From positions 17,877,397 through 17,941,396 of the forward strand of contig OZ020519.1 in the NCBI GenBank assembly GCA_963971425.1: a stretch of 64,000 nt of DNA. Direction: 5' to 3'. The translations under genes and the position numbers were made by a program. Origin of the DNA: Bryoerythrophyllum caledonicum (lineage: Eukaryota > Streptophyta > Bryopsida > Pottiales > Pottiaceae). Below, in pieces: positions 3,922 through 56,179 of this stretch. The stretch's first letter is position 1; each line of letters opens with the position of its first letter. Below the pieces are notes generated by a model, which worked only from the letters and a program-made list of their open reading frames with translations, did not search any database and was not told where the DNA came from.

Positions 3922-5436
3922 CTATCGTCGATATATTTGATGGCGGCTCCTTCTGTCACGACAACCTTTGCTTCCACATACGCACCGAAAGGTAGGAACC
4001 AAACTAGTCGTGTCATGGAAATCTATCCCATAGTCCCATGTGAGCTCCTCACCCGCCAAAACTAGTTGATTGGTAAAGAAGGCGACGTGATAGTAGCCCA
4101 TTAAATGTGTCTCAATGATGACCGGGATCTGCAACAAATTTGCGTCATAGCATCAGCGGGGAGTATAAACAAACAAGAATTAAATGTAGCATTCATGTTT
4201 TTATATCATAGTAATCTGACTGAAACATGGTGTGCACATATGTCCATCCGAAATCACTTACCCGTGGTTTAAAAACCTACAGACATTTCCACAATAGGTC
4301 GCAACAATCGAGAGACATTCTGCATCGCTGAGCTGGTCTTCTAATCTCCACTTCGCATCCAAGTTTAGGGCATACTTACCATGGTTGCGCATTCAGGTAT
4401 CGAGATCCTCATTAGATATAACCTCTCCAACAAACTCGAAGACAAATGCGCCTCTTGGAAACTCTTCCAACGTCTTAATGCCCCATCCCTTTTGGTCGTT
4501 CACCCAAAAGACCTGCAAAAATAAGTGCAAAGAGATGTAAAAACTCGCTTGCATAAACGATTAGGCATAAATCATTTACAATACAAATGATTTTGAAGGT
4601 GGAAATGGATAATACTCATACATCATGTACGAAGCACCGCACCTGCAGTTTGCGTGTCACTCCCTTTTGCACAACACGATTAGCACAAAGGGAACTGCAT
4701 TGACAAGATGTCCCACATTCTTTTATAAAGGTCCGTGTTATATGTTCAATACAAATCCCCTCGAAATTATTAGAACAACCTGCACTATCACAGTATTCAT
4801 ACAAAGTCGTATCCATTGCTAAAGTCTCATTCAGTGCCTGCAAAAGAAGATTAACAGAGAAATCAAGAACTTCCATTGAGACGGCCAAAAACGAGAGCCA
4901 TTACTATCCACAAGCTATTTAAATGTTCATTGATGCATAACAACTATGTCTTACCATTTCAACACAGTGTTCATGAAAGAGGCCGTCTTTGGTATAGGGG
5001 GCACAATCCGCAGCAAAATAAGCACATGGGCATGTGTTCCTCCTTCCCACTCCGCACGCATAAACACACCTCTGGCAGCCACCCCCTTGCAACGCGGTCA
5101 TGTCTAGGTCTACACAAACAGTTCCACTTCATGAGCTCTCTAAAATATACTCAAAATCATTGGGTCCCAGATATGTGTCTTTTTTGACAACCACGTTGTC
5201 GTGTTGTAAATTACTACACTATGTAAAAAGATAATATAGATACAAAAAGTGTGGTCGTAGAGTGACCTACAGTTTAATTCAATGTGGGAACATTTGGAGC
5301 TTGTTAGCCTAGCTTGGATGTACTGCATCTCTTGTCTCTAGCTCAGGGGTAGGTAGGTGGCCAGTTGGCTGCTTATTTTCCTGCTCTCACTAGCAAGTGC
5401 CAAGCCGCAGCCGCTCGAACAGTTCAACGAGTTCAA

Positions 5437-5512
5437 TGAGACTCGAACTCGGAATCAGTCGGCGGATAACAAACGGGCTCTAACAGCCAACCAAGTCTGC
5501 AACTTGGCGATT
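5437..5512 (-). other. tRNA-like A-box/B-box module, antisense within the LTR
   Basis: Read on the minus strand, TTGGTTGGCTGTTAGAGC resembles a tRNA D-arm/A box. About 30 nt later GAGTTCGAGTCTC resembles the T-arm/B box (consensus GGTTCGANTCC). The same module, also antisense, occurs in both LTRs of the full-length element and, diverged, in the LTRs at 27.3-28.9 kb and 53.5-56.2 kb. It does not fold into a complete canonical tRNA by eye, so it is not called a tRNA gene. It could be SINE-derived or act as an internal RNA polymerase III promoter. Confidence 0.5.
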
Positions 5513-5704
5513 ATCATCGAGCCTGCAATAGTCTTATACTGCTACAGATAAGTCGTTTGTTTCTTAATTTGACTTTACTGTGGACCATCTTTTAGATGGA
5601 AAGGCATCTATGGCTACTTAAATCTGCTTAGCCGTTTCCAATTAAAGAAATGTCATTGAGTTAATGTTAGGGAAGGCAAGCTTCTTGATGAAGTTATCGA
5701 AAAA

Positions 5705-5714
5705 CATATAAAGG
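5705..5714 (+). promoter_or_regulatory. TATA box of the family 1 LTR
   Basis: CATATAAAGG lies about 84 bp upstream of the ATG at 5798 and is present in all three closely related LTR copies. A TATA motif sits in the equivalent place in the diverged copy (about 55650-55660). If it sets the start site near 5735, the LTR ORF would be the first ORF of the transcript. Confidence 0.6.
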
Positions 5715-5797
5715 GTAGATGGTTGCCGTGCCTTATGCATTACTTCAGGTCATTATTAGTTTGGATTGTTTCTTCTTAGTTTCTATAGGTTGATAGT

Positions 5798-6229
5798 ATG
5801 GCTTCTCAAGACCCTGATGATTGGGAGTTTCCTTTAGCTCACTCACCGGATGATCTAATTCAATTTTCTCAACCATCGACATCAAGGCGGCGTGAGCGAG
5901 AGGAAGCAGGGCCTTCTGAGCGTCGTGTTCAACCACGTACCGCTTTTGATCCTCAACAAGTTCCTTTGATAAGTTTAAGAAGTTTACAACCGGAGGCAAG
6001 AACTTTAGTAATCGTCTTGGAGGTTGGAGATGTGCTTATCGAAGGCCATCAAGTGGTGTTTGAAGGGTGTTTTCAAAACACTAACGAAGGTCAAATGGTA
6101 ACCCGCTTGTCCAATGACCTTGGTCACCGTCTTTGGCTTCAAGGCCCGCTCAGACACTTGGGTAGTGAAAGGCGAGCAAGTTACATTGTTGCTGTTCTTC
6201 GTGATATTCTTGACTTTTTACATGTTTAA
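5798..6229 (+). CDS. LTR-encoded protein, 143 aa, unknown function
   Basis: Not recognised. The ATG follows the conserved context TTGATAGT, and the ORF starts about 600 nt into the LTR in its sense direction. Seen in the protein: an acidic Asp/Trp-containing start (SQDPDDWE), a Ser/Arg linker with a basic patch (SQPSTSRRR, then GPSERRVQPR), then a compact part with a beta-like LVIVLEV segment, VFEGCF, EGQMV, GHRLWL-GPL and a C-terminal amphipathic helix (AVLRDILDFL). No transmembrane segment, signal peptide or catalytic motif seen. Near-identical copies lie in the other two LTRs, and a clearly diverged intact copy at 55159-55581 has about 90 of 141 aligned residues identical by eye. This argues for retention by selection. 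It could be a nucleic-acid- or Gag-binding accessory protein; that is a guess. Confidence 0.7.
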   Translation: MASQDPDDWEFPLAHSPDDLIQFSQPSTSRRREREEAGPSERRVQPRTAFDPQQVPLISLRSLQPEARTLVIVLEVGDVLIEGHQVVFEGCFQNTNEGQMVTRLSNDLGHRLWLQGPLRHLGSERRASYIVAVLRDILDFLHV

Positions 6230-7138
6230 TCCATCTTGGGGTTGAAGTTGAGACCATTTGTTGTTATTTTTCTTAATATATATTTGTAGTTAGTTGTTGT
6301 TGTTGAAGAAACCCGGTCTTTAGATTGATGACCAGGTAGTTAGTGTTTAAAAATGCAAAGAATAGAAGGGATAGAGGGATGATAAGAATTGATAAGGGGG
6401 AGAATTTGAGCAACCAATGGGGTTTAAGATGCCCATGTGGCCTTTGAATGGGCTGAGGTTAGTTGTGATTGGCTCCTTTTCCCGTTTTGGGGGTTGGGTT
6501 CTTCCTTACCAAGGAGGGGCTGGATTGCGGGGGCTCTCTCTGGTTGTTTTTGTTGTAGTTTGTTTTGGATTTTGAGTATGTTGTAGCCCTTGTTGTTAGC
6601 TCTCTATGAAGCTATCACTCGGTCTTAGAGCTCAAAGTATGAGTGAACGGCGCCTTGTCGAACACAAGGGGGTCTGCTGCCCCATGTTTTCATGAGCAGT
6701 AGGTTTGAAGCCTTGTAGCGAGTTGTACAAAGTATATCTAAATGACATCTTTGGTGAGTGTTTGTACACTGTAAATAGCTTTCCAAAGAGCTATCTTATG
6801 CTCTATTTCGAGCTTTTGTGAAGTCATAGCACTAGTTTGAAAGAAGAAGGGTCAGCTGACTTGAATTTTTGTAAGAAGTAACTTTAATTGCACATAGCGG
6901 CTGGCTAGATGAGTTTCTGGAATTGAAATTTGATGTGTATGTGGTGTATTTTAGTGGCTTTTCAAGTAGCTATAGCACGTCTCATTCCGAGTTTGTATGA
7001 AACCGTAGTGGTATTTTGAATTAGAAAGTTAATCAAGAGTTTAAAAGAGAGTTTGAGTTCGGTTTATACTTAATGAAAGGTTAGATAAATGATTTCAAAG
7101 GGAGTAAGGATATATAGGAGAAGGGTATGAAGTGGTTA

Positions 7139-7165
7139 GGGTATGTAAGGGTAAGGGTATGTGGG
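7139..7165 (+). other. Potential G-quadruplex in the LTR sense strand
   Basis: Four GGG runs are separated by loops of 7, 3 and 5 nt within a stretch resembling irregular telomeric repeats (TTAGGGTATG, AAGGGTAAGGG). The complementary tract is present in the other two LTR copies at 30109-30135 and 38772-38798. Confidence 0.45.
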
Positions 7166-8159
7166 ATTGAGGTTAATTAGAGAATTAATTATCTTAATCA
7201 AGGTTAATTGTATTAAGTAAGATTAACTAGTCTAATTGCAATTAATTAGCTTAACTAAGATTAAGTGGATTAACTAACGTTAATCATATTAGTTAAATAT
7301 AATTATCTTAACTATTAATTAATTATTATTAAGTGAAATTAGTTAATTTAATCAGAGTTTAATTAAGGCTTGATTTAGATTAAGGATAATTAATGTTTTG
7401 AGTTAAGTTTTTGGGAGACAAGTTCTACAAGACATCTGTATCATGTCTTATTATATATACATCGAGTTTAACTATACAAGTTGAAGATCGGAGGCCTTTC
7501 TCGTTTGCTGAATGAGGACTTATGAGTTAATATGGACTTGGACACAAAATTATATGTTCCATATTCTCTATTTCTCTCTCTAAACTAAGTGCAGCCAAGA
7601 ACCCTGCGTTTTCCTGAAGCAAAGACTCTCTACACGACAACGTCTATGGGAATCCGCTCAACACCATCGGATAAATTATATGACTTTTGTAATGCTTCTA
7701 CAACCTGCAAACATACAGGCAAAACGTATTGATTACACAACCACTGAACTCTTGTACCCGTGTACAATATATGATAGGAAACAATGAAATAAATACTATA
7801 GCTATGGTAACAGAGAAGTATACTTTGAAATTAATACATGATCCACGGTTTAGTAAAGTACATAATACATGGAGAACACAGAGGTAGTAATGTCTATATC
7901 ATATATAGGCTCCGCGTGGCCGAGGGCACCAATGCAATTCATGTAGGATCACGTACATGTGTTATATGGTTCGTCGCCATACATATAACACATGTACTAA
8001 TATGAGAACCTTGAACCAAGACTAACGTGAAAACTAACGCAGAGTGCCATTACACATTGGCAGGCCACAAAATGGGAAAATGCCTGACCCGCATATAGTG
8101 GCTACATAAATGAACACTCTGCAGAAAACAATACACTACTTCTTGCTCCTACTTTTTAC

Positions 8160-8515: not shown

Positions 8516-9205
8516 CTGCAGTCAGGATCCATCACGCATCAGTACACGTAGGTATACCAGTCGACGCTCATGTATATATACATTAGCTTTATAATTTGAA
8601 AGGCGATGCTCCTTAGATTGAAGCAAACAGCAGTATGCACAGACATTGTGCTTAATGAATGCTTATGTGTAGACTATTTGAGTGATTGTGAAATTCTAAT
8701 AATGAGCTTGGAAACACTTTACGGTAGTATGGAAATTATCAAAGCTGAATGGTTATAAGTTTTGTGGATTGAACTGGAATACTCTGATCAGTGGAACTGT
8801 GGATGAGATGATCCAATGTTTTTAATGCTCTTCTTAGATTGTGAAGGAGTGGCTTCTAAGAAGTTAAAGAAAATTGAAAGTTCAAAGGTAAGTTACTTTT
8901 GCCTCATGAGTGAGTTGCTACTCTTTCAATTATGTTGATAGAAGTTGGGAGAAACCTGAGGATGAAAAAAAGTTGGTTTGCTTGAATGGTGAGATATGTG
9001 TGAAACAATAATTGTTGCTTAAATGGACTTATTAATTGACTTGAGAAGTTCAAAGGTCACAAAGTGAGGTGAGGTCAGTTGTCAACTTATGTACACTTTT
9101 TGGCGTAAGCGTTCGCAGCACCTATCTTGAGGATGAAGTGGACGAGGATGAATCCCTCTCACCGTCGCCTAGTAGATCCCGAACCTAGGTTTTCCCGAAC
9201 CTATG
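8516..9205. other. No gene recognised
   Basis: Only short ORFs and mixed-composition sequence. I see no repeat boundary until the 16-bp motif at 9206. Confidence 0.5.
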
Positions 9206-9608
9206 GATAGGGTATTGACAGGGCCTGAACCCAAACCCTCCCTCTTCGTTCACCCTCCCTCCCTCATTCTCTCGTGATTGCCCTTTGGCTGCTACTGCTC
9301 GGTGAGGGTGGTTGTTGTTCGGTGTTGGTGGAAGGAATGTGGGTGCTGGGTGCGAGTTGTTTACGTATATGGGTGGGTGCTGGGTGCAAAAGTTAGGTGA
9401 TCTGGATATGTAGGTGATCTGATCGTTGTTTTTTGCAATGTTGTAGAGCTCTGTACGTGGTGTTCATGGGCGTGGGTGTGGTGTTCGGTGCGGTAGTGTC
9501 GATTCGGTGCGGTAGTGTCGAATCGGGTACACTGCCCGAGATCGTGAAGTATACAAGGTGATGATTCAAACCTAGATCTCTAAATCCTAGCTTCGAGTTT
9601 GTGGCGAC

Positions 9609-14290: not shown

Positions 14291-14639
14291 TGTCGTACCA
14301 CGAATTTTCAATTTTTTTTCAATTAGTTACTTAGGAAGGGTATCACCGTACAACATTATAAAGTTTAGAGGTAAGTACTCCCCTAGTATTAGCTGTTAGG
14401 AAGAATTAGGGTAGGTAGAATACAGGGACTTTAGATAGGTGCTAAAAAGGACAAGTAGTGGTTTAAACCGGACCCTAACACCTTAGCCCAAGCGGGTAGG
14501 TGGAAGGCTTGGAGAGGACTTCAACCAATAGGAACTCAGAAGCCCCACCGGCAACGGCACGGAAGCTCACCAAAGCCCTAGTATAATAACCGGGTTGGAG
14601 GACTCCACATCACACCACTAGATAGCTGGAGTAGCTCCG

Positions 14640-16150
14640 AGTTGGAAGGGTGCTCTCGTAGGTCCGAGCTGGAAGGGTGCTCTCGCAGGTCCGAGCTGGA
14701 GGGTGCTCTCGTAGGTCCGAGCACGAGCACGAAGGAGAGTCCAGCCCGAGCACGAAGAAGAGTCCAGCCCGAGCACGAAGGAGAGTCCAGCCCGAGCACG
14801 AAGGAGAGTCCAGCCCGAGCACGAAGAAGAGCCGAGCACGAGCACGAAAGAGAGTCCAGCCCGAGCACCAAGGAGAGTCCAGCCCGAGCACGAAGGAGAG
14901 CCGAGCACGAGCACGAAGGAGAGTTCCAGCCCAAGCACGGAGCGGAGCTCCCCCACCGACAGCCAAGCACGAGCACGAAGGAGAGTTCCAGCCCAAGCAC
15001 GGAGGAGAGCTCCCCCACCGACATCCGGGCACCGACATCCGAGCACGAGCACGAAGGAGAGTCCAGCCCGAGCACGAAGGAGAGTCCAACACGAGCACAA
15101 AGGAGAGTCCAGCTTGAGCACGAAGAAGAGCCGAGCACGAGCACGAAGGAGAGTTCCAACCCAAGCACGGAGGAGAGCTCTCCCACCGACATCCGAGCAC
15201 GAGCACGAAGGAGAGTTCCAGCCCAAGCACGGAGGAGAGCTCCCCCACCGACATCCGGGCACCGACATCCGAGCACGAGCACGAAGGAGAGTCCAGCCCG
15301 AGCACGAAGGAGAGTCCAGCCCGAGCACGAAGGAGAGTCCAACACGAGCACAAAGGAGAGTACAGCTTGAGCACGAAGAAGAGCCGAGCACGAGCACGAA
15401 GGAGAGTTCCAGCCCAAGCACGGAGGAGAGCTCCGCCACCGACATCCGGGCACCGACATCCGAGCACGAGCACGAAGGAGAGTCCAGCCCGAGCACGAAG
15501 GAGAGTCCAAGCACGAGCACGAAGGAGAGTCTAGCCTGAGGACGAGGAGAGCTCCAGATTCAAGCTCAAGCACGGGAGGACTTACCGACACCCAAGCTGA
15601 AGGAGAGCCCCCATACTGACATCCGGGCACCAACACCCGAGTTGAGGTAAGTCGCAGGGCCGAGTTGGAGGGTGCTCTCGTAGGTCCGAGCACGAGCATG
15701 AAGGAGAGTTCCAGCCCAAGCACGGAGGAGAGCTCCCACACCGACATCCGGGCACCAACACCCGAGTTGAGGTAAGTCGCAGGGCCGAGTTGGAGGGTGC
15801 TCTCGTAGGTCCGAGCACGAGCATGAAGGAGAGTTCCAGCCCAAGCACGGAGGAGAGCTCCCACACCGACATCCGGGCACCGACATCCGAGCACGAGCAC
15901 GAAGGAGAGTCCAGCCCGAGCAAGAAGGAGAGTCCAGCCCGAGCACGAAGGAGAGTTCCAGCCCGAGCACGGAGGAGAGCTTCCATACCGACATCCGGGC
16001 ACCAACACCCGAGTTGAGGTAAGTCGCAGGTCCGAGCTGGAGGGTGCTCTCGTAGGTCCGAGTAGGAACACGAAGGAGGGTCCAGCCCGAGCACGAAGGC
16101 TTGGACACCTCCAGACGAGAGCACAAGGAAGGAGGGCGTACCAACACCCG
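14640..16150 (+). repeat. GC-rich minisatellite with 23-bp base unit and higher-order repeats
   Basis: The base unit (GAGTCCAGCCCGAGCACGAA plus GGA, 23 bp) repeats with variants. It is organised into longer units that add CCGACATCCGGGCACC segments, and near 15621-16030 into units of roughly 130 bp with GTTGAGGTAAGTCGCAG. As 23 is not a multiple of 3 and the unit lacks stops, long ORFs appear in several frames on both strands (up to 497 codons); these are artefacts. Element B has a different, shorter minisatellite in the matching place. Confidence 0.85.
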
Positions 16151-16266: not shown

Positions 16267-17196
16267 ATGACCTCCCTAACCAAGGAGATCTTTCCCATAG
16301 TCCCAAGGGAGCCACTCGAGCTCACCGAATTAAAGGAAGATCTGTTGCGGATGGGTTGCCTTTCTCTCTTGGACTTCTGTTGGAGTTTTTGCGTAGACTC
16401 CACGGTGCAGGAGCTACGACAAGATCCGCTACCAGAGCCGGAGGGAAGTAGCATCCGCGCTTGCCCAGACCGGTGGACCATGGGAAGATGGCAGGAGGTG
16501 TACGGATTTCCGCGACAGGGGGCGGGCTTCACGAGTTTGAAGAAAGAGGAGTACGCCAAGGTGCTCTTTGGTACCAAGGATGCCAAGAATGGCTATGCAC
16601 TGCAAGATTGTCAAGATCCTCGGGCGAAGAGGGTTTTCGCCTTCCTCGTACCAATCTTGCACCCGGAGAAACCAACCCGAGTCACGATCACTCTAGCTAA
16701 CACCCTCTATGGTGCCTATCTCGGAGAGCGGATGGTGAATTGGACGCTTATCATGAAGGAGGTAGTGATGAGGTTGATGAAGAGTGTCAATAGCACGAGG
16801 CGCTCCCCCATTTGCCCATACCTCATCCACCTCTATCACCACTTCAAGGAAACCACTCAGGAGGAGGCTATGGCGTACGGCACGCAGCTGATGATGAAGA
16901 AGTTTGAAGGGACGGAGTCGGAGCCCGAGCCGGGATCGGAAGGAGGAAGTAGCTCTTCGCAGTCAGAGGGAGAAGCTCTCCCACCTCCCAAGCGACAACG
17001 ATCGAGCCAAGGAGGAGCACCGTCCACCCGAACTCGAGCTGCTGCCCGGGCAGCCGCTACAGGCTTAGCTCAACTTGGAGGGAAGACTTACCGTGCCTCC
17101 GAGTTGGTGGAGGATCTGCGGGTGTATGTGGACGATGTGAACAAGACCTTGGTCAGTTGGGCAGCCTCATTGGCAATACCTCTTACCAAGGATTAG
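16267..17196 (+). CDS. Element A ORF, N-terminal part (plant transposon protein type)
   Basis: About 309 codons from an ATG just after the minisatellite. Residues about 75-205 form a helical domain (RWQEVYGF, YALQDCQDPRAKRVFAF, LHPEKPTRVTITLANTLYG, MVNWTLIMKEVVMRL, SPICPYLIHLYHHF). It recalls the 'putative plant transposon protein' domain found with plant LTR elements. Then come an acidic/Ser stretch, the basic cluster PPPKRQR (possible NLS) and an Ala/Arg linker. The frame ends in an overlap with the next ORF; the element B copy runs through here in one frame, so an indel near 17160 split an original single protein. Role unknown; Gag-like or regulatory are both possible. Confidence 0.6.
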   Translation: MTSLTKEIFPIVPREPLELTELKEDLLRMGCLSLLDFCWSFCVDSTVQELRQDPLPEPEGSSIRACPDRWTMGRWQEVYGFPRQGAGFTSLKKEEYAKVLFGTKDAKNGYALQDCQDPRAKRVFAFLVPILHPEKPTRVTITLANTLYGAYLGERMVNWTLIMKEVVMRLMKSVNSTRRSPICPYLIHLYHHFKETTQEEAMAYGTQLMMKKFEGTESEPEPGSEGGSSSSQSEGEALPPPKRQRSSQGGAPSTRTRAAARAAATGLAQLGGKTYRASELVEDLRVYVDDVNKTLVSWAASLAIPLTKD

Positions 17197-18227
17197 TCGC
17201 AGCGGCCAAGGAGAAGATGGGAGGAGTCGGTGACCCCTGCCTTATGGAACAGAAGGTGAACCGACTCACTTTGGAAGTAACCAAGATGAAGAGTCGGGCC
17301 TTGGAGGCCGAGCGGAGTTGCAAGGAGGCCCTTCTCCAAGCCAATGCCTCGACCTCGGCGTTGCAACAAGTGGAGGAGGCATTGCACGCCCCGGCGGAGG
17401 CAGTGATGAAAGCGAAGATGTTTGATGCGAGGTTGGAGAGGGATGGTCACATTTCCAGCAAGAAGGTAATTGCCTTCATGATGGAGCAAACCGTAAAGAT
17501 CGAAGAGACGTATGCTAACATGAGGTTATTGGTAAGCAACCTCACCCATATTCTACCCAAGTTCGTGGAGGATTCTGACAAGGATGATGACTCGGGTTCG
17601 GATGCGGATTCGGAGAAGCAAGACTCGGGTGACCAAGGACCTCCGCCGGGGAAGGGAGTGATTGATCTCGATAGTCCTGTCCTGCCTTCTCGAATTTCCA
17701 CTGTGGGAGTCCCCTCCTGTCCCTCCCCTTCAGATCTCACCACACAAGTACAGAGTGGGAGGAAGGATGGCTTGGATGCCACGATGGAGCCTCCGCGAAC
17801 GACTCTCCTTCGCCAGTTTTCCCTTGGAGACCCTGTCCGCGCGACACCGACAGTTACTCCTTTGCCGGGTATGTCTCCTTTTGGGAAGACCACGAGTGAG
17901 AGTTCGGCATACTTGCACCTTCCAGTACAACAAGAGGTCTTCATTGGGACTCCAAGTCTCACACGGACCCTTCCGCCCCGAATCGAGCCCTACCGAAGCA
18001 CGACTTCCGTGCTACTCGCTCCGGGTGGCCCGGATGCCTCCGTGACTTTGATGGAGGCCTTGCCGCGGGCATCCATGGCCGGATCGGCACCCTCTTCATC
18101 TGCGGATCTGTTATCACCACTTGTGACACTCGCGAAGGCTGCGGCGCACCCGACTTCCAGCAAGAGTTCGAAGAAGCGGAAGAGGAGGGAAGAGAAGAGA
18201 AGACTTGAGGAGTTGACCCGGAAGTAG
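17157..18227 (+). CDS. Element A ORF, C-terminal part (coiled coil plus Ser/Pro tail)
   Basis: Continuation of the preceding protein in another frame. The matching region of element B runs on in one frame. Seen: a long heptad-type coiled coil (about residues 25-90), a conserved segment (ISSKKVIAFMMEQTVKIEE, then NMRLLVSNLTHILPKF), an acidic stretch, a long Ser/Thr/Pro-rich tail and a C-terminal basic cluster (SKKRKRREEKRR). The coil and following segment are shared with the element B ORF and, diverged, with the ORF at 25.4-27.3 kb, so this module is common to at least two element families. No enzymatic motif. Confidence 0.6.
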   Translation: MGSLIGNTSYQGLVAAAKEKMGGVGDPCLMEQKVNRLTLEVTKMKSRALEAERSCKEALLQANASTSALQQVEEALHAPAEAVMKAKMFDARLERDGHISSKKVIAFMMEQTVKIEETYANMRLLVSNLTHILPKFVEDSDKDDDSGSDADSEKQDSGDQGPPPGKGVIDLDSPVLPSRISTVGVPSCPSPSDLTTQVQSGRKDGLDATMEPPRTTLLRQFSLGDPVRATPTVTPLPGMSPFGKTTSESSAYLHLPVQQEVFIGTPSLTRTLPPRIEPYRSTTSVLLAPGGPDASVTLMEALPRASMAGSAPSSSADLLSPLVTLAKAAAHPTSSKSSKKRKRREEKRRLEELTRK

Positions 18228-29634: not shown

Positions 29635-32131
29635 TGTCGAGTAGAGAGTCTTTGCTTCAGGAAAACGCAGGGTTCTTGGCTGCACTTAGTTTAGAGAGGG
29701 AAAGGGAGAATATGGAACATATAATTTTGTGTTCAAGCCCATATAAACTCATAAGTCCTCATTTAGCATACGAAAAAGGCCTCCAATCTTCAACTTGTAT
29801 AATAAAACTCGATGTACATATAATAAGACATGATGCAGATGTCTTGTAGAACTTGTCTCCCAAAAACTTAACTCAAAACATTAATTATCCTTAATCTAAA
29901 TCAAGCCTTAATTAAACTCTGATTAAATTAACTAAGTTCGCTTAATAATAATTAATTAATACTTAAGATAATTATATTTAAATAATATGATTAACCTTAA
30001 TTAATCCACTTAATCTTAGTTAAGCTAATTAATTACAATTAGACTAGTTAATCTTACTTAACACAATTAACCTTGATTAAGATAATTAATTCCCTAATTA
30101 ACCACAATCCCACATACCCTTACCCTTACATACCCTAACCACTTCATACCCTTCTCCTATATACCCTTACTCCCTTTGAAATCATTTATCTAACCTCTCA
30201 ATAAGTACAAACCGAACTCAAATTCTCTTTTAAACTCTTGATTAACCTTCTAATTCAAAATACCACTACGGTTTCATACAAACTCGGAATGAGTCGTGCT
30301 ATAGCTACTTGAAAAGCCACTAAAATACACCACATACACACCAAATTTCACCTCCAAAAACCCATCTGGCCAGCCGCTATGTGCAATCAAAGTTACTTCT
30401 TACAAAAACTCAAATCAGCTGACCCCTCTTCTTTCAAACTAGTGCTATGACTTCACAAAAGCTCGAAATAGAGCATAAGATAGCTCTTTGGAAAGCTATT
30501 TACAGTGTACAAACACTCACCAAAGATGTCATTTAGATATACTTTGTACAACTTGCTACAAGGCTTCAAACCTACTGCTCATGAAAACATGGGGCAGCAG
30601 ACCCCCTTGTGTTCGACAAGGCGCCGTTCACTCATACTTTGAGCTCTAAGACCGAGTGATAGCTTCATAGAGAGCTAACAACAAGGGCTACAACATACTC
30701 AAAAATCAAAACAAACTACAACAAAAACAACCCGAGAGAGCCCCCGCAGTCCAGCCCTCCTTGGTAAGGAAGAACCCAACCCCCAAAACGGGAAAAAGAG
30801 CCAATCACAACTAACCTCAGCCCATTCAAAGGCCACATGGGCATCTTAAACCCCATTGGTTGCTCAAATTCTCCCCCTTATCAACTCTTATCATCCCTCT
30901 ATCCCTTCTATTCTTTGCATTTTTAAACACTAACTACCTGGTCATCAATCTAAAGACCGGGTTTCTTCAACAACAACAACTAACTACAAATATATTAAGA
31001 AAAATAACAACAAATGGTCTCAACTTCAGCCCCTAGATGGATTAAACATGTAAAAAGTCAAGAATCTCACGAAGAACAGCAGCAATGTAACTCGATCGCC
31101 TTTCACTACCCAAGTGTCTGAGCGGGCCTTGAAGCCAAAGACGGTGACCAAGGTCATTGGACAAGCGGGTTACCATTTGACCTTCGTTAGTGTTTTGAAA
31201 ACACCCTTCAAACACCACTTGATGGCCTTCGACAAGCACATCTCCAACCTCCAAGACGATTACTAAAGTTCTTGCCTCCGGTTGTAAACTTCTTAAACTT
31301 GTCAAAGGAACTTGTTGAGGATCAAAAGCGGTACGTGGTTGAACACGACGCTCAGAAGGCCCTGCTTCCTCTCGCTCACGTCGCCTTGATGTTGATGGTT
31401 GAGAAAGTTGAATTAGATCATCCGGTGAGTGAGCTAAAGGAAACTCCCAATCATCAGGGTCTTGAGAAGCCATACTATCAACCTATAGAAACTAAGAAGA
31501 AACAATCCAAACTAATAATGACCTGAAGTAATGCATAAGGCACGGCAACCATCTACCCTTTATATGTTTTTCGATAACTTCATCAAGAAGCTTGCCTTCC
31601 CTAACATTAACTCAATGACATTTCTTTAATTGGAAACGGCTAAGCAAATTTAAGTAGCCATAGATGCCTTTCCATCTAAAAGATGGTCCACAGTAAAGTC
31701 AGATTAAGAAACAAACGACTTATCTGTAGTAGTATAAGACTATTGCAGGCTCGATGATAATCGCCAAGTTGCAGACTTGGTTGGCTGTTAGAGCCCGTTT
31801 GTTATCCGCCGACTGATTCCGAGTTCGAGTCTCATTGAACTCGTTGAACTGTTCGGGCGGCTGCGGCTTGGCACTTACTAGTGAGAGCAGGAAAATAAGC
31901 AGCCAACTGGCCACCTACCTACCCCTGAGCTAGAGACAAGAGATGCAGCACATCCAAGCTAGGCTAACAAGCTCCAAATGAACATTTGTGTTATGAGTTA
32001 CGTTGAGCTAAGCTTTGAAGACAATGCAATATCAGAATCAAGACATTGAATTAAACTGTAGGTCACTCTACGACCACACTTTTTGTATCTATATTATCTT
32101 TTTACATAGTGTAGTAATTTACAGCACGACA
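29635..32131 (-). repeat. 3' LTR of the full-length element (2497 bp)
   Basis: TG...CA ends (TGTCGAG ... CACGACA as written on the + strand). Same structure as the solo LTR at 5197-7639. It is 57 bp longer than the 5' LTR because a 5-bp segment is replaced by 62 bp at 31981-32042, most of which copies integrase sequence in inverse orientation. TATA at 31557-31566; antisense tRNA-like module at about 31763-31835. Confidence 0.95.
31042..31473 (-). CDS. LTR-encoded protein, 143 aa (3' LTR copy)
   Basis: Intact copy of the protein described at 5798-6229, with a few substitutions (for example LSQP for FSQP, RSSYIAAVLREIL near the end). Same position relative to the LTR start and TATA box. Function unknown. 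In the 3' LTR it could be expressed only if that LTR's own promoter is active. Confidence 0.7.
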   Translation of the reverse strand: MASQDPDDWEFPLAHSPDDLIQLSQPSTSRRREREEAGPSERRVQPRTAFDPQQVPLTSLRSLQPEARTLVIVLEVGDVLVEGHQVVFEGCFQNTNEGQMVTRLSNDLGHRLWLQGPLRHLGSERRSSYIAAVLREILDFLHV

Positions 32132-32173: not shown

Positions 32174-33151
32174 CTAGTTTGGCTCTCCAATGTCGTCATC
32201 TTCATCAGTGTTGATTTCTTGATCAGCATCCTCTAGTTGATCTTCATCACTTGATTCTGATATTGCATTGTCTTCAAAGCTTAGCTCAACGTGACGCCTC
32301 TTGAATGCTTTGATTCTTTTTCCTGCCACCGGTATCCTTAATTGAGTGCCATCCAACTCACGAAGTGAATACGTGCCGTTTTCATGGACTTCCAGTACCA
32401 CATAAGGTCCAAACCACCTTCGTGCAAATTTTCTGACAGTGCTGTGCTGATGCTCCAAGCTACTGTCAAACATCAACACCCAATCCCCAGCTTGAATTGG
32501 TTTTGTTCTTAATCTGTGAGTCTTGTCAAATCTTTCCTTGTTTTTCAGCCTTGCTGCTTTTAGCCTTTCTAATGCTGCTCTTTGATTTTCAGGTAACCGC
32601 TCAAGTTGCTCTATCCGGAGCTCCAATAACCTCTCCCTTGATATTCCATCATTCCAATCTAAAAACGTCCATGTCGGTATTGAAGTCTCTGTTGGCATGA
32701 TAGGTTTTTGGCCTAACATCAACTCTGTTGGCATATAGCCTGTAACTGTGCTATGAGTGGTTCTATCAGCCCATAATGCAAATGGTAAAAGTCTAGGCCA
32801 CTGTTTTGGTCTCCCTTTACATGCTTTGACCAAAGCGTTAATGATGGGAGGATGCCCTCTCTCACTCTTACCATTTGCCTCAGGATTGTAAGCTGTTGTA
32901 AGTCTTAACTTCACTCCGTATCTTTTGAAGAACTCGACAGCTTCGGCAGCATTTAACTCACCACGATCTGCTCTCATCCTGCCGATACTACCATATCTGC
33001 TGAAAATGTCTTCAAGTATAAATCTACAAATTCCTTCTGTAGATTTGGTCCTCAAAGCCCTTCCTTCAACAAAGTTTGAGAGCTCTTCTCTAGCCAAAAC
33101 AAGGTATTTCATGCCCCATAATCCCAATGGCATTGCAACCAAGTCAATCAC
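32174..33151 (-). CDS. Integrase core and C-terminal domain (end of pol)
   Basis: Same frame as the upstream pol ORF, separated from it only by a TAA at 33212-33214. Catalytic triad residues are visible: VIDLVAMP (D), RADRGELNAAEAVEFF (D) and NPEANGKSERGH (E). Then come a helical linker and a GPY/F-like module (RWFGPYVVLEVHENGTYSL), followed by an acidic tail (SESSDEDQLEDADQEIN). No chromodomain seen. It would insert the element cDNA. The true start is the pol polyprotein, not an ATG here. Confidence 0.88.
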   Translation of the reverse strand: MIDLVAMPLGLWGMKYLVLAREELSNFVEGRALRTKSTEGICRFILEDIFSRYGSIGRMRADRGELNAAEAVEFFKRYGVKLRLTTAYNPEANGKSERGHPPIINALVKACKGRPKQWPRLLPFALWADRTTHSTVTGYMPTELMLGQKPIMPTETSIPTWTFLDWNDGISRERLLELRIEQLERLPENQRAALERLKAARLKNKERFDKTHRLRTKPIQAGDWVLMFDSSLEHQHSTVRKFARRWFGPYVVLEVHENGTYSLRELDGTQLRIPVAGKRIKAFKRRHVELSFEDNAISESSDEDQLEDADQEINTDEDDDIGEPN

Positions 33152-38277: not shown

Positions 38278-38297
38278 CTCTCAGTGGAAGCACCAAA
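38278..38297 (-). promoter_or_regulatory. Primer-binding site region
   Basis: Directly inside the 5' LTR the minus strand reads TTTGGTGCTTCCACTGAGAG. TGGTGC would pair with a tRNA ending GCACCA. The wording resembles the primer region of some plant gypsy elements. I cannot name the tRNA. Confidence 0.55.
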
Positions 38298-40737
38298 TGT
38301 CGAGTAGAGAGTCTTTGCTTCAGGAAAACGCAGGGTTCTTGGCTGCACTTAGTTTAGAGAGGGAAAGGGAGAATATGGAACATATAATTTTGTGTTCAAG
38401 CCCATATAAACTCATAAGTCCTCATTTAGCATACGAAAAAGGCCTCCAATCTTCAACTTGTATAATAAAACTCGATGTACATATAATAAGACATGATGCA
38501 GATGTCTTGTAGAACTTGTCTCCCAAAAACTTAACTCAAAACATTAATTATCCTTAATCTAAATCAAGCCTTAATTAAACTCTGATTAAATTAACTAAGT
38601 TCGCTTAATAATAATTAATTAATACTTAAGATAATTATATTTAAATAATATGATTAACCTTAATTAATCCACTTAATCTTAGTTAAGCTAATTAATTACA
38701 ATTAGACTAGTTAATCTTACTTAACACAATTAACCTTGATTAAGATAATTAATTCCCTAATTAACCACAATCCCACATACCCTTACCCTTACATACCCTA
38801 ACCACTTCATACCCTTCTCCTATATACCCTTACTCCCTTTGAAATCATTTATCTAACCTCTCAATAAGTACAAACCGAACTCAAATTCTCTTTTAAACTC
38901 TTGATTAACCTTCTAATTCAAAATACCACTACGGTTTCATACAAACTCGGAATGAGTCGTGCTATAGCTACTTGAAAAGCCACTAAAATACACCACATAC
39001 ACACCAAATTTCACCTCCAAAAACCCATCTGGCCAGCCGCTATGTGCAATCAAAGTTACTTCTTACAAAAACTCAAATCAGCTGACCCCTCTTCTTTCAA
39101 ACTAGTGCTATGACTTCACAAAAGCTCGAAATAGAGCATAAGATAGCTCTTTGGAAAGCTATTTACAGTGTACAAACACTCACCAAAGATGTCATTTAGA
39201 TATACTTTGTACAACTTGCTACAAGGCTTCAAACCTACTGCTCATGAAAACATGGGGCAGCAGACCCCCTTGTGTTCGACAAGGCGCCGTTCACTCATAC
39301 TTTGAGCTCTAAGACCGAGTGATAGCTTCATAGAGAGCTAACAACAAGGGCTACAACATACTCAAAAATCAAAACAAACTACAACAAAAACAACCCGAGA
39401 GAGCCCCCGCAGTCCAGCCCTCCTTGGTAAGGAAGAACCCAACCCCCAAAACGGGAAAAAGAGCCAATCACAACTAACCTCAGCCCATTCAAAGGCCACA
39501 TGGGCATCTTAAACCCCATTGGTTGCTCAAATTCTCCCCCTTATCAACTCTTATCATCCCTCTATCCCTTCTATTCTTTGCATTTTTAAACACTAACTAC
39601 CTGGTCATCAATCTAAAGACCGGGTTTCTTCAACAACAACAACTAACTACAAATATATTAAGAAAAATAACAACAAATGGTCTCAACTTCAGCCCCTAGA
39701 TGGATTAAACATGTAAAAAGTCAAGAATCTCACGAAGAACAGCAGCAATGTAACTCGATCGCCTTTCACTACCCAAGTGTCTGAGCGGGCCTTGAAGCCA
39801 AAGACGGTGACCAAGGTCATTGGACAAGCGGGTTACCATTTGACCTTCGTTAGTGTTTTGAAAACACCCTTCAAACACCACTTGATGGCCTTCGACAAGC
39901 ACATCTCCAACCTCCAAGACGATTACTAAAGTTCTTGCCTCCGGTTGTAAACTTCTTAAACTTGTCAAAGGAACTTGTTGAGGATCAAAAGCGGTACGTG
40001 GTTGAACACGACGCTCAGAAGGCCCTGTTTCCTCTCGCTCACGTCGCCTTGATGTTGATGGTTGAGAAAGTTGAATTAGATCATCCGGTGAGTGAGCTAA
40101 AGGAAACTCCCAATCATCAGGGTCTTGAGAAGCCATACTATCAACCTATAGAAACTAAGAAGAAACAATCCAAACTAATAATGACCTGAAGTAATGCATA
40201 AGGCACGGCAACCATCTACCCTTTATATGTTTTTCGATAACTTCATCAAGAAGCTTGCCTTCCCTAACATTAACTCAATGACATTTCTTTAATTGGAAAC
40301 GGCTAAGCAAATTTAAGTAGCCATAGATGCCTTTCCATCTAAAAGATGGTCCACAGTAAAGTCAGATTAAGAAACAAACGACTTATCTGTAGTAGTATAA
40401 GACTATTGCAGGCTCGATGATAATCGCCAAGTTGCAGACTTGGTTGGCTGTTAGAGCCCGTTTGTTATCCGCCGACTGATTCCGAGTTCGAGTCTCATTG
40501 AACTCGTTGAACTGTTCGGGCGGCTGCGGCTTGGCACTTACTAGTGAGAGCAGGAAAATAAGCAGCCAACTGGCCACCTACCTACCCCTGAGCTAGAGAC
40601 AAGAGATGCAGCACATCCAAGCTAGGCTAACAAGCTCCAAATGTTCCCACATTGAATTAAACTGTAGGTCACTCTACGACCACACTTTTTGTATCTATAT
40701 TATCTTTTTACATAGTGTAGTAATTTACAGCACGACA
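38298..40737 (-). repeat. 5' LTR of the full-length element (2440 bp)
   Basis: Read on the minus strand it begins TGTCGTGCTGTAAATTAC and ends CTCTCTACTCGACA. It carries, in sense order, the antisense tRNA-like module (about 40424-40499), TATA (40220-40229), the LTR ORF (39705-40136), AGCT hairpins and the G-rich tract complement (38772-38798). It drives transcription of the element. Confidence 0.95.
39705..40136 (-). CDS. LTR-encoded protein, 143 aa (5' LTR copy)
   Basis: Identical by eye to the 3' LTR copy except Ala to Thr in EEAGPSE, from the single C/T difference seen between the LTRs. Because it lies downstream of the 5' LTR TATA box and upstream of gag, it would be the first long ORF on the element's genomic RNA, with a leader of more than 1.4 kb between it and gag. 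Function unknown. Confidence 0.72.
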   Translation of the reverse strand: MASQDPDDWEFPLAHSPDDLIQLSQPSTSRRREREETGPSERRVQPRTAFDPQQVPLTSLRSLQPEARTLVIVLEVGDVLVEGHQVVFEGCFQNTNEGQMVTRLSNDLGHRLWLQGPLRHLGSERRSSYIAAVLREILDFLHV

Positions 40738-42204: not shown

Positions 42205-44176
42205 CTACTTCTGGGCCAACTCCTCTCTCCTCTTGCGCTTTTTGGAACTCCGGCTTAAAGTCGGGGTGGGTGCAGCCGCCACAAGTACCACCAATGGCGC
42301 AAACACCTTCGTAGAAGAAGTGGGCGGGGCAGTAGTTGCCCTCGGCAAGGTTTCCCTTGAAGGCAAGGAGGTATCCGAGCCATCCGGGATGAGTGGAATG
42401 GCAGTCATGCCCGGATGAAGCTCGGATCGTGTCAGGAGGCCCGATACCTGACTTAGGGTTCCCATGATGACATCCTGTCCGAATATCGGTCCTGGAGTGT
42501 ATAAGTAAGAGGAACTCTCACTTGCGGTCTTCCCAAGGTGAAACCCGCTCTGCAAAAGGGCAACAATCAGTGTAGTACGAGAGGGGTCATTGTGTGACAA
42601 TTGGCGAGGACGCACGGAGAGTGGAGGCTCCATCGCAACACTCAGGCGTTCCTTCCAACCACTCTGCATCTGGGTGGTGACCTCTGAAGGGGACGGTCCC
42701 ACCGGTATCGTCAAACTCGGGAGTTGAGGAGGCAAATTTGGGCTGTCGAGGTCCACTACTTCCTTCTCCTTCCGTGGGTCGTGATCACCTAAGCCATGCT
42801 CCTCCGGATTGGTCTCCGAGCCCAAATCTCCATCCTTATCTAAACTGTCAGAATCTTTCACAAACTTAGGAAGGATGTGAGTGAGGTTGCCGACCAACAA
42901 CCTCATGTTAGCATAAGCCTCCTCCAACTTAACGGTTTGTTCTACCATGAAGGCAATTACCCGTTTGCTGGAGATATGACAATCTCTCTCCAACTTGGCA
43001 TCGAACATCTTGGCTTTTGCTACTGCATCCGTCGGAAAGTGTAACGCCTCCTCCACCTGCTGTAATGCTGCCACCAAGGCGTTGGCTTGTAGAAGAGCCT
43101 CCCTGCAATTCCCCTCCGCCTCCAAGGTCCAACTCTTCATCTTGGTTGTATCCAAGGTGAGTCGGTGGACCCTCTGCTCCATGATGCGGAGGTCACCAAC
43201 CCCTCCAGTCCTTTCCTTGACCGCAGCAACCAATCCCTCACGCGGAGGATTACCCACCAAACCGCTCACGTGTTTCAGAGTTCTATCCATGTCCTCCACA
43301 TACACCCGAAGTGCCTCTAGTAACTCAGAGGCTGGGTAAGTCTTCCCTCTGAGTTGAGCTGGCCCCGAGGTTGCGGCAAGGATTGTTGCTCGGGTCCGGG
43401 TGGCAGGTGCTCCGCCTTACTTGTCTCTGTCGCTTGGGTGGTGGCAAAACTTCCTCCTTTGATTGTGATGAACTGCTCCCTCCTTTCGATCCTGGCTCAG
43501 ACTCCGACTCCGTCCCCTCAAACTTCTTCAACATGTGTTGTGTCCCATATGCAATGTCTTCTTCAGGAGTGGTTTCCTTGAAGTGATGATAGAGATGGAT
43601 CAAAAAGGGGTAGATGGGGGAGCGTTTAGTGTTGTTGATGCCCTTCACTAACCTGAGCACCACCTCTCTGATGATGATGGCCCAATTCACCGTTCTTTCT
43701 CCAAGGTAGGACCCATATACGGTATTGGCGAGGGTGACTGTGACTCGGCTAGGTTTTTCAGGGTGTAAGATGGGTACCAGGAATGAGAAGACCCTCTTGG
43801 CTCAGGGGTCCAGACAATCTTGTAGTGCATAACCACTCTTGACGTCCTTGGTGCCGAATCGCCCCTTAGCATACTCCTCCTTCTTCAGACTTGTCCATCT
43901 TGCCCCTTGTCTTAGAAAGCCATATACCTCCTGCCATCTTCCCATAGTCCACTGATCCGGGCAAGCCCTAATGCTATCTCCTTCTAGTGTGGGTAGAGGA
44001 TCTTGTTGGAGTTCCCTCAAGGTGGGCTCTATACAAAAACCCCAACAAAGTCCCAGGAGAGAATGACACCCCATGCGAAGGAGATCCTCCTTTAGTTCAG
44101 TGAGTTCTAGAGGGTCCTTGGGGACAAGGGGAGAGATATCCTTGGCCATAGAAGTGGCTGGGTTGCCTGAGTTCAT
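42205..44176 (-). pseudogene. Element B ORF (plant transposon protein plus coiled coil), broken
   Basis: Starts with ATG at 44176 and follows the element A protein block by block: ELTELKEDLLRMGC, RWTMGRWQEVYGF-like, YALQDCLDP, LIHLYHHFKETTPEE, KKFEGTESESEPGSKGG, PPPKRQR, then the coiled coil (EAEGNCREALLQANA) and ISSKRVIAFMVEQTVKLEE. Breaks: TGA near 43799 where element A has Arg (DPRAK), and a frameshift near 43435 just after PPPKRQR. Downstream of that it reads through the point where element A has its own frameshift. Comparison of the two copies shows the ancestral protein was a single chain of roughly 650 residues. Role unknown. Confidence 0.65.
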
Positions 44177-47240: not shown

Positions 47241-47261
47241 ACCCAATGCCGATCGGCCTTG

Positions 47262-47817: not shown

Positions 47818-47857
47818 AGCTACGGTTGGCATTATTGGCAGTTCTACGGGAGGCCTT

Positions 47858-52207: not shown

Positions 52208-52210
52208 ATA

Positions 52211-53530: not shown

Positions 53531-55158
53531 CCGTTGTCGAGTAGCGAGAGTTTTTCTTTGGAAAATCGCGGAGATCCTAGCTGCTGCTAGAAATGATTTG
53601 AGAACAAAGATTGTCTCCAAATAAATCTCTAGTCTTGACCACCAAATCCTCTTGTGTTCAAATCTTTAATCTTCATTCTTCAATCTTCAATCTTCAAACT
53701 CCTCCCCGTTGGCCTATCATGTCGTGGCTCTAAAGGGTTAAGGGTAAAGGTAGGTGATAAGAAACCACGGCCTCGGACGGGTAAAACGGGACGGCCAAAC
53801 CACGAGCTGACCGTCCGAAAGATTGGCTCCTAAACTTCAAACCCACGGTGACCAACAATCGCGCCTCACCGGTGGGAACAACCTAAACACGACCGTGTGG
53901 GCAATTAACCCCACTTCGCCGCAACAAAGTTTACGAAGCAGAATTGAAAAACAACTAGCCTCCAAAACCGGCTGGGAATAACAAATAAAGACAACGAGCC
54001 TCCAAAGCCGGCTAGGAATAACAAAGCCACAAGCCACAACACGCGAGTCTTCTAGTCTTCTTATCTTCAAGTCTTCATGTCTTCTTATCTTCAAGTCTTG
54101 AAGTGTTCAAAAACACAAAAGACCTCTCAAAGTTCTTGTCCACACTAGCTGCGAGCTTCCGATCAATACCACAAATGATTTGAGCCGCCAAATGCCAAGT
54201 ACTATAGCTTTTTGGAAAGCTGGTGCAATAAGCTGATACCCTCCAAAATCTCAGGTTATTCTAAACTACCTTCTAAAAGTTATGGAGGTTCAAAGTTTGT
54301 GCCTTCTTATGTCGATGACAGCAAACCCTCTCCAACTTCGGCGGCTATAACTTCTATATTACTATTCTAAATGAGCCGTATAATAGCTTTATAGAAAGCT
54401 AATTTAATAAGCTACAACTCCTCTAAATTTCACTTCAAACTAATCTACTCACTAAAAGTTGTGTAAGCTTAAAACTCACGCCTCCCCACTTCCAAGACGG
54501 CAGAACTCTCCTCTACTTAGATGGCTATAACTTTTTCATAGCGCATCTAAATGAGTTGAGTGATAGCTTCTTAGAAAGCTAATACAATGAGAAATGCTTC
54601 TCTCAAATTTCAAGTCCTAACACAAAGTATCGAAGCCGTGGTGAAGGCCCGAAGTTGCTGCTCCTCTAATTGGGTAGCGGCCAACTACTCCTCACTCAAT
54701 CTCTCATAACTTTTGCGTATGAACTCCAAATTGAAAAAAAACACCGCTCAAAGAAGCGCAACTTCACAAGGAACAACTTCACAAATTTTCATAACATTCT
54801 CATGAAAAACGAGTACACACCGCCCGATCTCCTTCTCGGGAATTTTCTCACAGCACTCTCTACACACCAAGAAGAAAAGAGAGTCGCCCCCCCTTATCCT
54901 TCCACATCAGCCCATGTCTAAGCCACATGGGCATCTAAAGCCTATTGGTTAACTTCCAAAAGCACTCTTAAGTCTATCAAGATAAGATAGGAAAGAACCC
55001 CAACCATTGGGCTTCAAAAGGTGAAGTTCCAAAAGAATTCTAAGACGGTCAAACCTTTTCTTAGTTTCTTTTCTTTTTCTTTCTTGGATCTTGATCTAAC
55101 ATAAACATAAACACATAACAAACTCCTATATTAACAACTGAATGGATTCTACCTTTAT

Positions 55159-55581
55159 CTAACCGAATAAAAACTCTAGAATTTGACGGAGCACCGCAGA
55201 AACATAACTCGTTCTCCGTTCATCGCTTAAGTAAGTCAGCGGCCCTCGAAGCCAAAGACGGTGGCCCATCTCATTAGAAAAGCGACTCACCATTTGGCCT
55301 TCATCGGTATTTTCAAAACACCCTTCAAACACCATCTGACGGCCACCCGTCAATGAAGCTTCAGCCTCCAATACAATCACTAGAGCTCTCGCGTCCGGTT
55401 GTAGATTCACAAATGCAAATTGCCGCAGACTTGGATCTGGACGTGGTTGAACACGACGCTCGGAAGGCCCCGCTTCATCTCGCACTCGCCGTCTGGAAGT
55501 TGATGGCTGAGAAGATTGAAACGGATCCTCCGGTAATTGCGATAACGACAACTCCCACTCATCTGGGTCTTGAGAATCCAT
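55159..55581 (-). CDS. LTR-encoded protein, about 140 aa (diverged homologue)
   Basis: ATG at 55581 in the same context (TTGATAGT before the ATG) as the family 1 copies. Conserved blocks: SQDPDEWE, SQPSTSRRR, EAGPSERRVQPR, LVIVLE, VFEGCFENT, EGQMVSRFSN, GHRLWLRGPL, AVLRQILEFL. The differences fall mostly in the linker after QPR and around LEAEASLTGG. The frame is intact in a solo LTR that is otherwise well diverged, which supports a selected function before this copy was stranded. Function unknown. Confidence 0.7.
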   Translation of the reverse strand: MDSQDPDEWELSLSQLPEDPFQSSQPSTSRRRVRDEAGPSERRVQPRPDPSLRQFAFVNLQPDARALVIVLEAEASLTGGRQMVFEGCFENTDEGQMVSRFSNEMGHRLWLRGPLTYLSDERRTSYVSAVLRQILEFLFG

Positions 55582-55828
55582 ACTATCAACTCTAAGCAAT
55601 CCAAGCTATTGGCTTGAAGCAAAACATGTGAGGCAAAGAAACTATCTTCCTTTTTATATCTCTCAGTAACTTCTTTAAGAAGCTTGCCTTCACTAAATTA
55701 CTCAAATAGCCATAAATAATTCTATTTACTAAAAGTAGCCCGCATCAAAAGATCTGGCTAAAGGACAAGGTCGCGACATTGTACAGTCCCTCAACAGTTG
55801 TATAAAGCCGCCTTAAGTCCACTAATGG

Positions 55829-55903
55829 TCGCCAAGTTGCGGACTTGGTTGGCTATCAAGGTCCGTTGATTGTTGCCTGCCGGTTCCGGGTTCGAGCTTT
55901 ATC
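55829..55903 (+). other. tRNA-like module in the diverged LTR (antisense to the LTR)
   Basis: ACTTGGTTGGCTATCAAGG resembles an A box and CCGGGTTCGAGCTTT a B box. The segment aligns with the family 1 module at 5437-5512. Not a complete tRNA by eye. Confidence 0.5.
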
Positions 55904-56179
55904 AAACTCGTTGAACGGCCTCGATAGTTGCAACTTGGTACTTGCTAGTGAAAGCAGGAAATAAGCAGCCAACCGGCCACCTACGCTTCCCTGAGCTACA
56001 GTGACAAGATGCAGGCTTCCAAGTTATACTAACAAGCTCCGATTATCCCCCATTGAACCAAACCGTGGATTTTTCAACGACCCCAACCTTTTGTATCTTT
56101 CTCCTCATATTCTATCCGATGTCCAAGGCAACATCTTTAATATTTTCACACAATATATTAATTTACAACACGACACCGT

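Follow-up and report, generated by a model that had tools for sequence, protein, structure and literature searches.

The question raised by the locus described here is whether the long terminal repeats (LTRs) of a moss retrotransposon contain a gene of their own and, if so, what the element may gain from it. The DNA analysed, called the window, is a stretch of 64,000 nucleotides (nt) from Bryoerythrophyllum caledonicum (Pottiaceae; GenBank assembly GCA_963971425.1, contig OZ020519.1, positions 17,877,397 to 17,941,396, forward strand). It contains four LTRs of one Ty3/gypsy group, all with TG...CA ends, of which two belong to a full element and two are solo LTRs. The LTRs at 29635-32131 and 38298-40737 are identical at 2435 of 2440 aligned bases (99.8%) and share the target-site duplication (TSD) CCGG; since they belong to one element, the insertions are three, not four. 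A preliminary description of the window reported an intact open reading frame (ORF) of 140-143 codons, in LTR sense and downstream of a TATA box, in each of the four LTRs. The coordinates, the strands and a spacing of 77-91 nt between TATA box and ATG were all confirmed (Table 1), and the ORF sits inside both LTRs of the full element as well as inside the solo LTRs. We consider it very probable from these and the following comparisons that LTRs of this plant Ty3/gypsy group combine a promoter with a conserved gene.

The length of the ORF is suggestive, and tests of selection have to decide, because dinucleotide shuffles occasionally attain the same length: this happened in 1, 1 and 6 of 300 shuffles for the LTRs labelled A, B5 and D, in all three of which the longest ATG-initiated ORF has the length of the LTR ORF. 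The window holds LTRs of two types, B and D. About 90 of 141 residues of the D-type protein at 55159-55581 had been matched by eye, and the computed identity to the B-type protein at 39705 is in line with this (62%). The surrounding LTR had been called much less alike. This is correct 3' of the ORF, where B and D match at about 32-59 bases per 100 columns as far as the gapped 3' end, and where only a short block near LTR positions 1214-1261 and the final bases align well. It is not correct 5' of the ORF, where a block at LTR positions ~64-263 has 72-75 matches per 100 and is as alike as the ORF itself (54-79 in the ORF blocks); sequence around the TATA box is also shared. An inverted repeat, GCCCAT...ATGGGC, common to B and D, lies at LTR positions 1228-1258 of the B type (39480-39510, minus strand).

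The conserved upstream block could suggest that the LTR is conserved as non-coding DNA and that the open frame within it is fortuitous. The start of the ORF points in the same direction: in codons 1-48 (e.g. 39993-40136) the proportion of synonymous differences (pS) between B and D is 0.35-0.38 as against 0.56-0.65 elsewhere (significance not computed), a hint that a DNA or RNA signal may overlap the ORF there. The substitution pattern, however, is that of a coding sequence. By Nei-Gojobori counts, the ratio of nonsynonymous to synonymous substitution rates (dN/dS) between B and D is 0.28 (810 pairs), with the lowest value in codons 67-144 (0.19) and the highest in the linker, codons 49-66 (0.59). 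Relatives of the ORF in further element lineages of the same assembly, named G, H, I, I2 and J and described below, give 0.065-0.17 in ten pairs. The dN/dS check proposed in the preliminary description thus returned values well below 1 between lineages. The ratio of uncorrected proportions, pN/pS, for which no correction is needed, is 0.20-0.40 in seven pairs, with bootstrap upper limits of 0.29-0.51, and four of the five alternative frames give 0.86-3.5. Seven lineage representatives were compared, and in every one of them stops interrupt all five frames other than the sense frame, which alone is open.

Selection and decay can be told apart in the 57 unique B and D ORFs. Private changes (n=211) have a nonsynonymous to synonymous ratio (N/S) of 2.77, where their own mutation spectrum predicts 3.03 under neutrality; shared changes (n=107) have 1.89 and fixed B-D differences (n=108) 1.22. 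Private and fixed changes differ significantly (Fisher p 0.001; p 0.09 for codons 1-48 alone). The raised dN/dS within families, 0.35-0.61, reflects the nearly neutral private changes. Purifying selection therefore acts on the replicating lineages of the element while single insertions decay, as is expected of a protein that the element uses. The LTR protein is less constrained than the proteins of the internal region, since the same B-D comparison gives 0.15 for gag-protease (gag-PR) and 0.07 for the 775-residue part of pol.

Some results weigh against this conclusion or limit it. The choice of copies, by ORF similarity or from stop-free rows, is biased towards intact copies. Between B/D and G-J, dN/dS is 0.15-0.39 in six of ten comparisons and not computable in four, with dS near or beyond saturation. 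One antisense frame also has a low pN/pS (0.27-0.55), although its value lies above that of the sense frame in all seven pairs and the frame carries 4-12 stops in every lineage representative. Shared and fixed changes differ in the expected direction, but not significantly (p 0.13). Taken with the dN/dS range of 0.065-0.28, the open sense frame in seven of seven representatives and the contrast between private and fixed changes nevertheless disfavour a non-coding explanation already, and we regard it as extremely improbable.

How widespread the ORF is was examined in the whole assembly (437,360,962 bases, 894 contigs). Each protein search scored the best 150 of about 1,050-1,200 candidates, so that copy numbers are lower bounds; stop-free counts refer to these best-scoring copies, are biased upward and do not count frameshifts. 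With these limits, 132 of 150 hits of the B query and 119 of 150 of the D query are stop-free, as are 44 of the 53 G-type hits among the best 150 of the G query. Of 82 oriented B and D sequences (78 loci plus the four copies of the window, of which three recur among the loci as L001, L009 and L014), 74 have a fully intact ORF and eight a stop; the loci were picked from ranked lists and many are near-identical. In older variants, recovered with codon-exclusion patterns, the ORF is broken in six of seven type-C and two of three type-E loci, which is read as decay after insertion. The preliminary description had named mostly broken ORFs as evidence against a gene; the best-scoring copies are mostly stop-free, whereas the older C and E variants are indeed mostly broken.

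More distant elements were found through a pattern for the reverse transcriptase (RT) motif that excluded the B and D codons. The LTR of lineage G (L094) has an intact ORF of 152 codons whose product is 38% identical to the D protein (tblastn E 2e-20). Among its best 150 hits, the G protein recovered 53 of type G, about 74 of type H (64-70% identity) and 23 of types I and J. The ORFs of G, H, I and J are 33-45% identical to those of the window, and all 34 G-J loci, chosen from stop-free rows, are open from the ATG to the C-terminal end. Their position also points to the LTR: both LTR ends were read in one G locus (L096), the H ORF precedes the primer-binding site (PBS) and gag, the I and J ORFs lie between the end of integrase and a CGACA end followed by NCGN, and in all four lineages the ORF occurs in pairs whose spacing is nearly constant and corresponds to the length of an element. 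In an alignment of eight proteins from seven lineages, 30 columns are invariant, including LQ..AR.LVI.L, F.G.F, GH..WL.GP and IL.FL. At least six element lineages thus encode, at the LTR and in its sense, a protein of 140-153 residues.

These lineages also bear on the possibility that the LTR captured a host gene and that conservation reflects recent host ancestry rather than element function. The protein is small and unrelated to the gag or pol of L082, a D-type copy elsewhere in the assembly (no blastp match at E <= 1), as might be expected of a captured gene. But the proteins of B/D and those of G-J have different residues at 55-67% of positions, with constraint within each group, element sequence accompanies the ORF wherever its surroundings were examined (loci of B, D, G, H, I and J), and no Pfam or NCBIfam family matches it, the scan for homologues in the assembly covering the best 150 candidates per search. 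A captured host gene is accordingly very unlikely. The gene may be older than one species. Judging by its plastid rbcL and accD genes, the assembly is that of a land plant, and a bryophyte-like one. It contains two plastid rbcL types (contigs C821 and C894, 92.4% nucleotide identity), and all 23 I and J hits lie on contigs numbered above C15, ten sampled ones being 17-101 kb long. Both observations suggest that the DNA of a second plant is probably present in the assembly and that I and J may come from it, in which case the LTR gene would predate a single species.

The element that carries the ORF is a recognizable Ty3/gypsy element (Table 1). The motif LALVDHGSEIN in its 838-residue ORF is one that we take to be protease-like; the homologue in L082 has a weak gag-asp_proteas match (E 0.073). 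The pol frame of the window element is interrupted between 33212 and 33133, and L082 has uninterrupted ORFs of 894 and 1173 residues with the same domains. The domain order of its 1173-residue pol is RVT_1, RNase H, H2C2, rve, as it is in the interrupted window copy; this corresponds to the arrangement gag, protease, RT, RNase H, integrase (gag-PR-RT-RH-INT), with the rve match of L082 at 25.5 bits under the curated cut-off of 32.6. The C-terminal integrase chromodomain of chromoviruses was not detected: in the uninterrupted pol of L082 and in the window copy there is no Pfam Chromo match at E <= 1 and instead a weak SH3_Tf2-1 match. No paper on DUF4100, the family matched by the gag-protease ORF, was found in a literature search. 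The putative PBS, TTTGGTGCTTCCACTGAGAG, also follows the LTR in L082 and is present in L111, with a near copy in L093. Elsewhere in the window, two opposite-strand copies of another long-ORF repeat family lie at 16267-18227 and 42205-44176 (stretches 75-85% alike), and GC-rich tandem repeats at 14578-15747, with start-to-start spacings of 69, 230 and 253 bp, yield long low-complexity antisense ORFs.

Table 1. Coordinates of the LTRs, LTR ORFs, TATA boxes and internal features in the window.
Feature	Position	Strand	Basis or remark
Solo LTR, B-type	5197..7639	+	TG...CA ends, TSD ACGT on both sides
TATA box (TATAAA)	5707..5712	+	91 nt before ATG of the 5798 ORF; LTR position 511
LTR ORF, 143 aa	5798..6229	+	ORF list
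3' LTR of full B-type element	29635..32131	-	99.8% to 5' LTR, TSD CCGG
LTR ORF, 143 aa (3' LTR copy)	31042..31473	-	ORF list
TATA box (3' LTR copy)	31559..31564	-	91 nt before ORF ATG
Integrase part of pol	32174..33133	-	rve E 1.7e-4
Pol part: RT, RNase H, integrase zinc-binding, 775 aa	33212..35539	-	RVT_1, RT_RNaseH, Integrase_H2C2 matches
Gag-protease ORF, 838 aa	35731..38247	-	DUF4100 match; start 50 nt past 5' LTR
Putative primer-binding site TTTGGTGCTTCCACTGAGAG	38278..38297	-	Directly 3' of 5' LTR
5' LTR of full B-type element	38298..40737	-	Pair of 29635..32131, TSD CCGG
LTR ORF, 143 aa (5' LTR copy)	39705..40136	-	ORF list
TATA box (5' LTR copy)	40222..40227	-	91 nt before ORF ATG
Solo LTR, D-type	53535..56175	-	TG...CA ends, TSD ACGG on both sides
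LTR ORF, 140 aa	55159..55581	-	ORF list; 62% identical to B-type protein
TATA box (D-type solo LTR)	55653..55658	-	77 nt before ORF ATG

Where transcription starts determines how the gene would be expressed, and the promoter region was compared in one copy per lineage. The distance from TATAWA to the ATG is 91 nt in B, 77 in D, 70 in I and 73 in J; G has TTATAA at -66, and G, H, I and J have AAGGTGACG in common, at -95 to -121. RNA polymerase II would be expected to initiate some 25-30 nt past this box. The position 5735 given in the preliminary description is not that of the TATA box, which lies at 5707, but the predicted transcription start would fall near it. With a start at this distance, the ORF would be the first or nearly the first on the genomic RNA and would occupy the predicted R/U5 region (the repeated and 5' unique parts of the LTR). 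The protein could also be produced from a solo LTR, and it would be available ahead of and independently of gag-pol. The earlier conditional proposal that the ORF comes first on the genomic RNA is thus supported in part: it agrees with the TATAWA box at -70 to -91 in four of six lineages (B, D, I and J) and does not extend to H. In the I and J copies no ATG would precede the ORF on an RNA with the predicted start, and in H the 100 nt leading up to the ORF are free of ATGs.

Several features do not fit this expression model easily. In H no TATA box is nearer than -204. Upstream ATGs occur at -63 in B and -46 in D, at the predicted start, and at -28 in G, past it, so that these copies may have a short frame ahead of the ORF. 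The stretch from the ORF to gag contains 29 ATGs in the B element of the window and 17 in L082, all opening short frames, and gag would therefore need another route to translation; inspection by eye revealed no conserved splice donor by which the ORF could be removed. A T-rich region of the poly(A) type 3' of the ORF was also considered and is unsupported: the T fraction is 0.31-0.47 in the first 120 nt after the ORF, and only H exceeds all other flank windows.

The intervening ATGs would matter less if the element behaved in the manner of mouse mammary tumour virus (MMTV). In the accessible text of PMC3026287, MMTV Sag is a protein encoded inside a retroelement LTR, accounts for the unusual length of that LTR and is made from transcripts whose splice acceptor lies just 5' of the ORF in the 3' LTR. 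By analogy, the moss ORF could lie in U3 (the 3' unique part). The genomic RNA would then start further 3' in the LTR, and the source of the protein would be either the 3' LTR or a separate transcript, internal or spliced. An LTR of 2.4-2.6 kb is long enough for this, and a start near its 3' end would mostly avoid the 29 and 17 ATGs of B and D. However, the TATA box common to A, B and D is the one 5' of the ORF, and other TATA-like matches are not common to B and D. We consider the Sag-like arrangement somewhat unlikely. To the proposal that the gene lies in R/U5 and makes of every LTR, solo ones included, a promoter-plus-gene cassette, whose product would be the first protein of the element, without known relatives and acting in trans on element or host, we give about even chances.

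The features of the protein itself allow a limited view of its role. B and D proteins have acidic residues at 1-24, a basic stretch at 25-50, and a C-terminal part of ~80 residues that may be a small domain; the basic linker is rich in Arg and Pro. The preliminary description had recognised no family for the protein, and this stands: Pfam, NCBIfam and PHROGs gave no match, PDB sequence searches with the single protein and with 4-member and 8-member profiles gave a best E of 0.36, judged to be chance, and no homologue appeared in viral contigs or prokaryotic genome contigs. The structure-based search that had been suggested was run and gave no reliable fold, which limits what can be said of function. 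AlphaFold models of the four window proteins are poor (mean pLDDT 53.5), with a weak strand-strand-strand-strand-helix arrangement at residues 69-142, and Foldseek against PDB gave 74 matches up to E 10, the best at E 1.3 and none reliable.

Our tentative suggestion, which rests on analogy and on the predicted order of expression, is that the protein is a trans-acting factor aiding expression of the element's own RNA. Candidate routes would be countering host silencing, or aiding nuclear export or translation of a genomic RNA with a long leader. This role is favoured because the product would appear early, in trans and before gag-pol, and the layout of acidic N-terminus, basic linker and C-terminal part would suit it. 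The nearest functional analogy is CERV of the Caenorhabditis elegans element Cer1. As described in the available part of PMC10309623, CERV has no relatives outside its host group and is required for export of the genomic RNA; it has 517 residues and is translated from a spliced five-exon mRNA that shares exons with gag.

A different role would be that of a particle or integration cofactor, such as a partner of Gag or a targeting factor tied to a preference for CpG. Target duplications of the group are 4 bp long with a central CG (window, L001-L038 and L082-L085). The 42 sequences preceding an LTR start comprise 18 that belong to the internal end of the element itself and 24 genomic flanks; 22 of these flanks are NCGN, and for the remaining two NCGN stands on the opposite side. 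In G, I and J, one flank each at a candidate LTR end (CCGT, CCGT and ACGT) agrees with CG-centred sites, and CG makes up only about 3% of window positions. The integrase of this group seems to require CpG at the target, a requirement on which no paper stood among those listed by a literature search. The Foldseek list includes three chains of the BAZ2A TAM domain with DNA, but at E 4.5-6.7, which was judged chance level, and neither the structure model, Foldseek nor the profile searches provide sequence or reliable fold evidence for DNA binding. We consider a cofactor role unlikely.

Whether the protein belongs to the core of the element is addressed by a related family, F, represented by an array of tandem units in C6 and by a copy in C15. 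Its LTR is 1750 bp long in L093, with the LTR end and PBS at 4348. No homologue of the ORF was detected in the whole 7.9-kb L093 unit or in L095 (tblastn with E up to 10; no match scored below E 0.2), whereas decayed copies of other lineages are still detected by tblastn. Since F is related and yet apparently lacks the ORF, the LTR protein is probably accessory and not core. The comparison has its weaknesses: F is decayed, with gag and pol frames broken in the L093 unit, and is represented by two loci only. Tandem LTR-internal-LTR arrays were observed at C3:36519032-36571120, C9:11202073-11238420, C15:712407-755869 and C6:21231799-21381062, with near-constant unit lengths of 8610, 8982, 8606-8607 and 7852 bp, respectively, and the F-family array has 20 RT motifs; tandem LTR elements are known in plants, as the accessible text of PMC11899658 describes. 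F is not clearly an outgroup, because its integrase C-terminus is 68-75% identical to those of the other lineages, which are 65-79% identical among themselves (H not included). Integrase and LTR protein do not diverge in parallel: B and I are 78% identical in integrase and 35% in the LTR protein, B and D 79% and 61%, over an integrase segment of only 97-169 residues. Exchange of LTRs between elements, or a fast branch, would explain the mismatch, and we offer this as a lead.

Accessory coding sequences that overlap the 3' LTR are familiar from lentiviral Nef and foamy virus Bel/Bet, which overlap it from outside and are expressed from spliced RNAs. The closest precedent for the present layout is MMTV Sag, as far as the excerpt of that work shows, because there too the ORF lies in the LTR and the LTR is long. 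The likeness is one of layout only: no direct sequence comparison was made, and general protein searches gave no match. Unlike the spliced Sag transcripts, the window ORF has a TATA box ahead of it and would be the opening ORF of the genomic RNA, and host and element class differ. In plants, additional ORFs (aORFs) of Athila, Grande, RIRE2, Retand, Tekay and Retrosat2 (ORF0) encode extra conserved proteins of unassigned function; sunflower Tekay is treated in the available portions of PMC11728184. Retrosat2 has LTRs of over 3.2 kb and an ORF0 before gag-pol whose Ka is higher than that of ORF1; the accessible text puts ORF0 upstream of ORF1 and does not use the phrase "within the LTR" (PMC3485330). 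The review of Vicient and Casacuberta places plant aORFs in the internal region, and phrases such as "in", "within" or "inside the LTR" do not occur in its available text (PMC7264820). The moss elements resemble these in carrying an extra conserved ORF in most copies, among the best-scoring ones, but differ in that the ORF is inside both LTRs and inside solo LTRs rather than between LTRs. Titles and the beginnings of abstracts listed in searches of open-licence PMC papers reported no plant retrotransposon gene inside an LTR, which is not proof of absence; the "inside the LTR" passages seen in parts of PMC11302176 and PMC4031123 are unrelated.

LTRs are usually taken as control DNA and are usually masked, and a selected gene within them is therefore easily missed. 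If transcription starts at the TATA box, the first product of these elements would be an accessory protein that solo LTRs also supply, so that loss of the internal region would not remove the protein. The F family, apparently without the ORF, provides a natural comparison, and the protein family is a direct handle on what a plant retrotransposon employs besides gag and pol.

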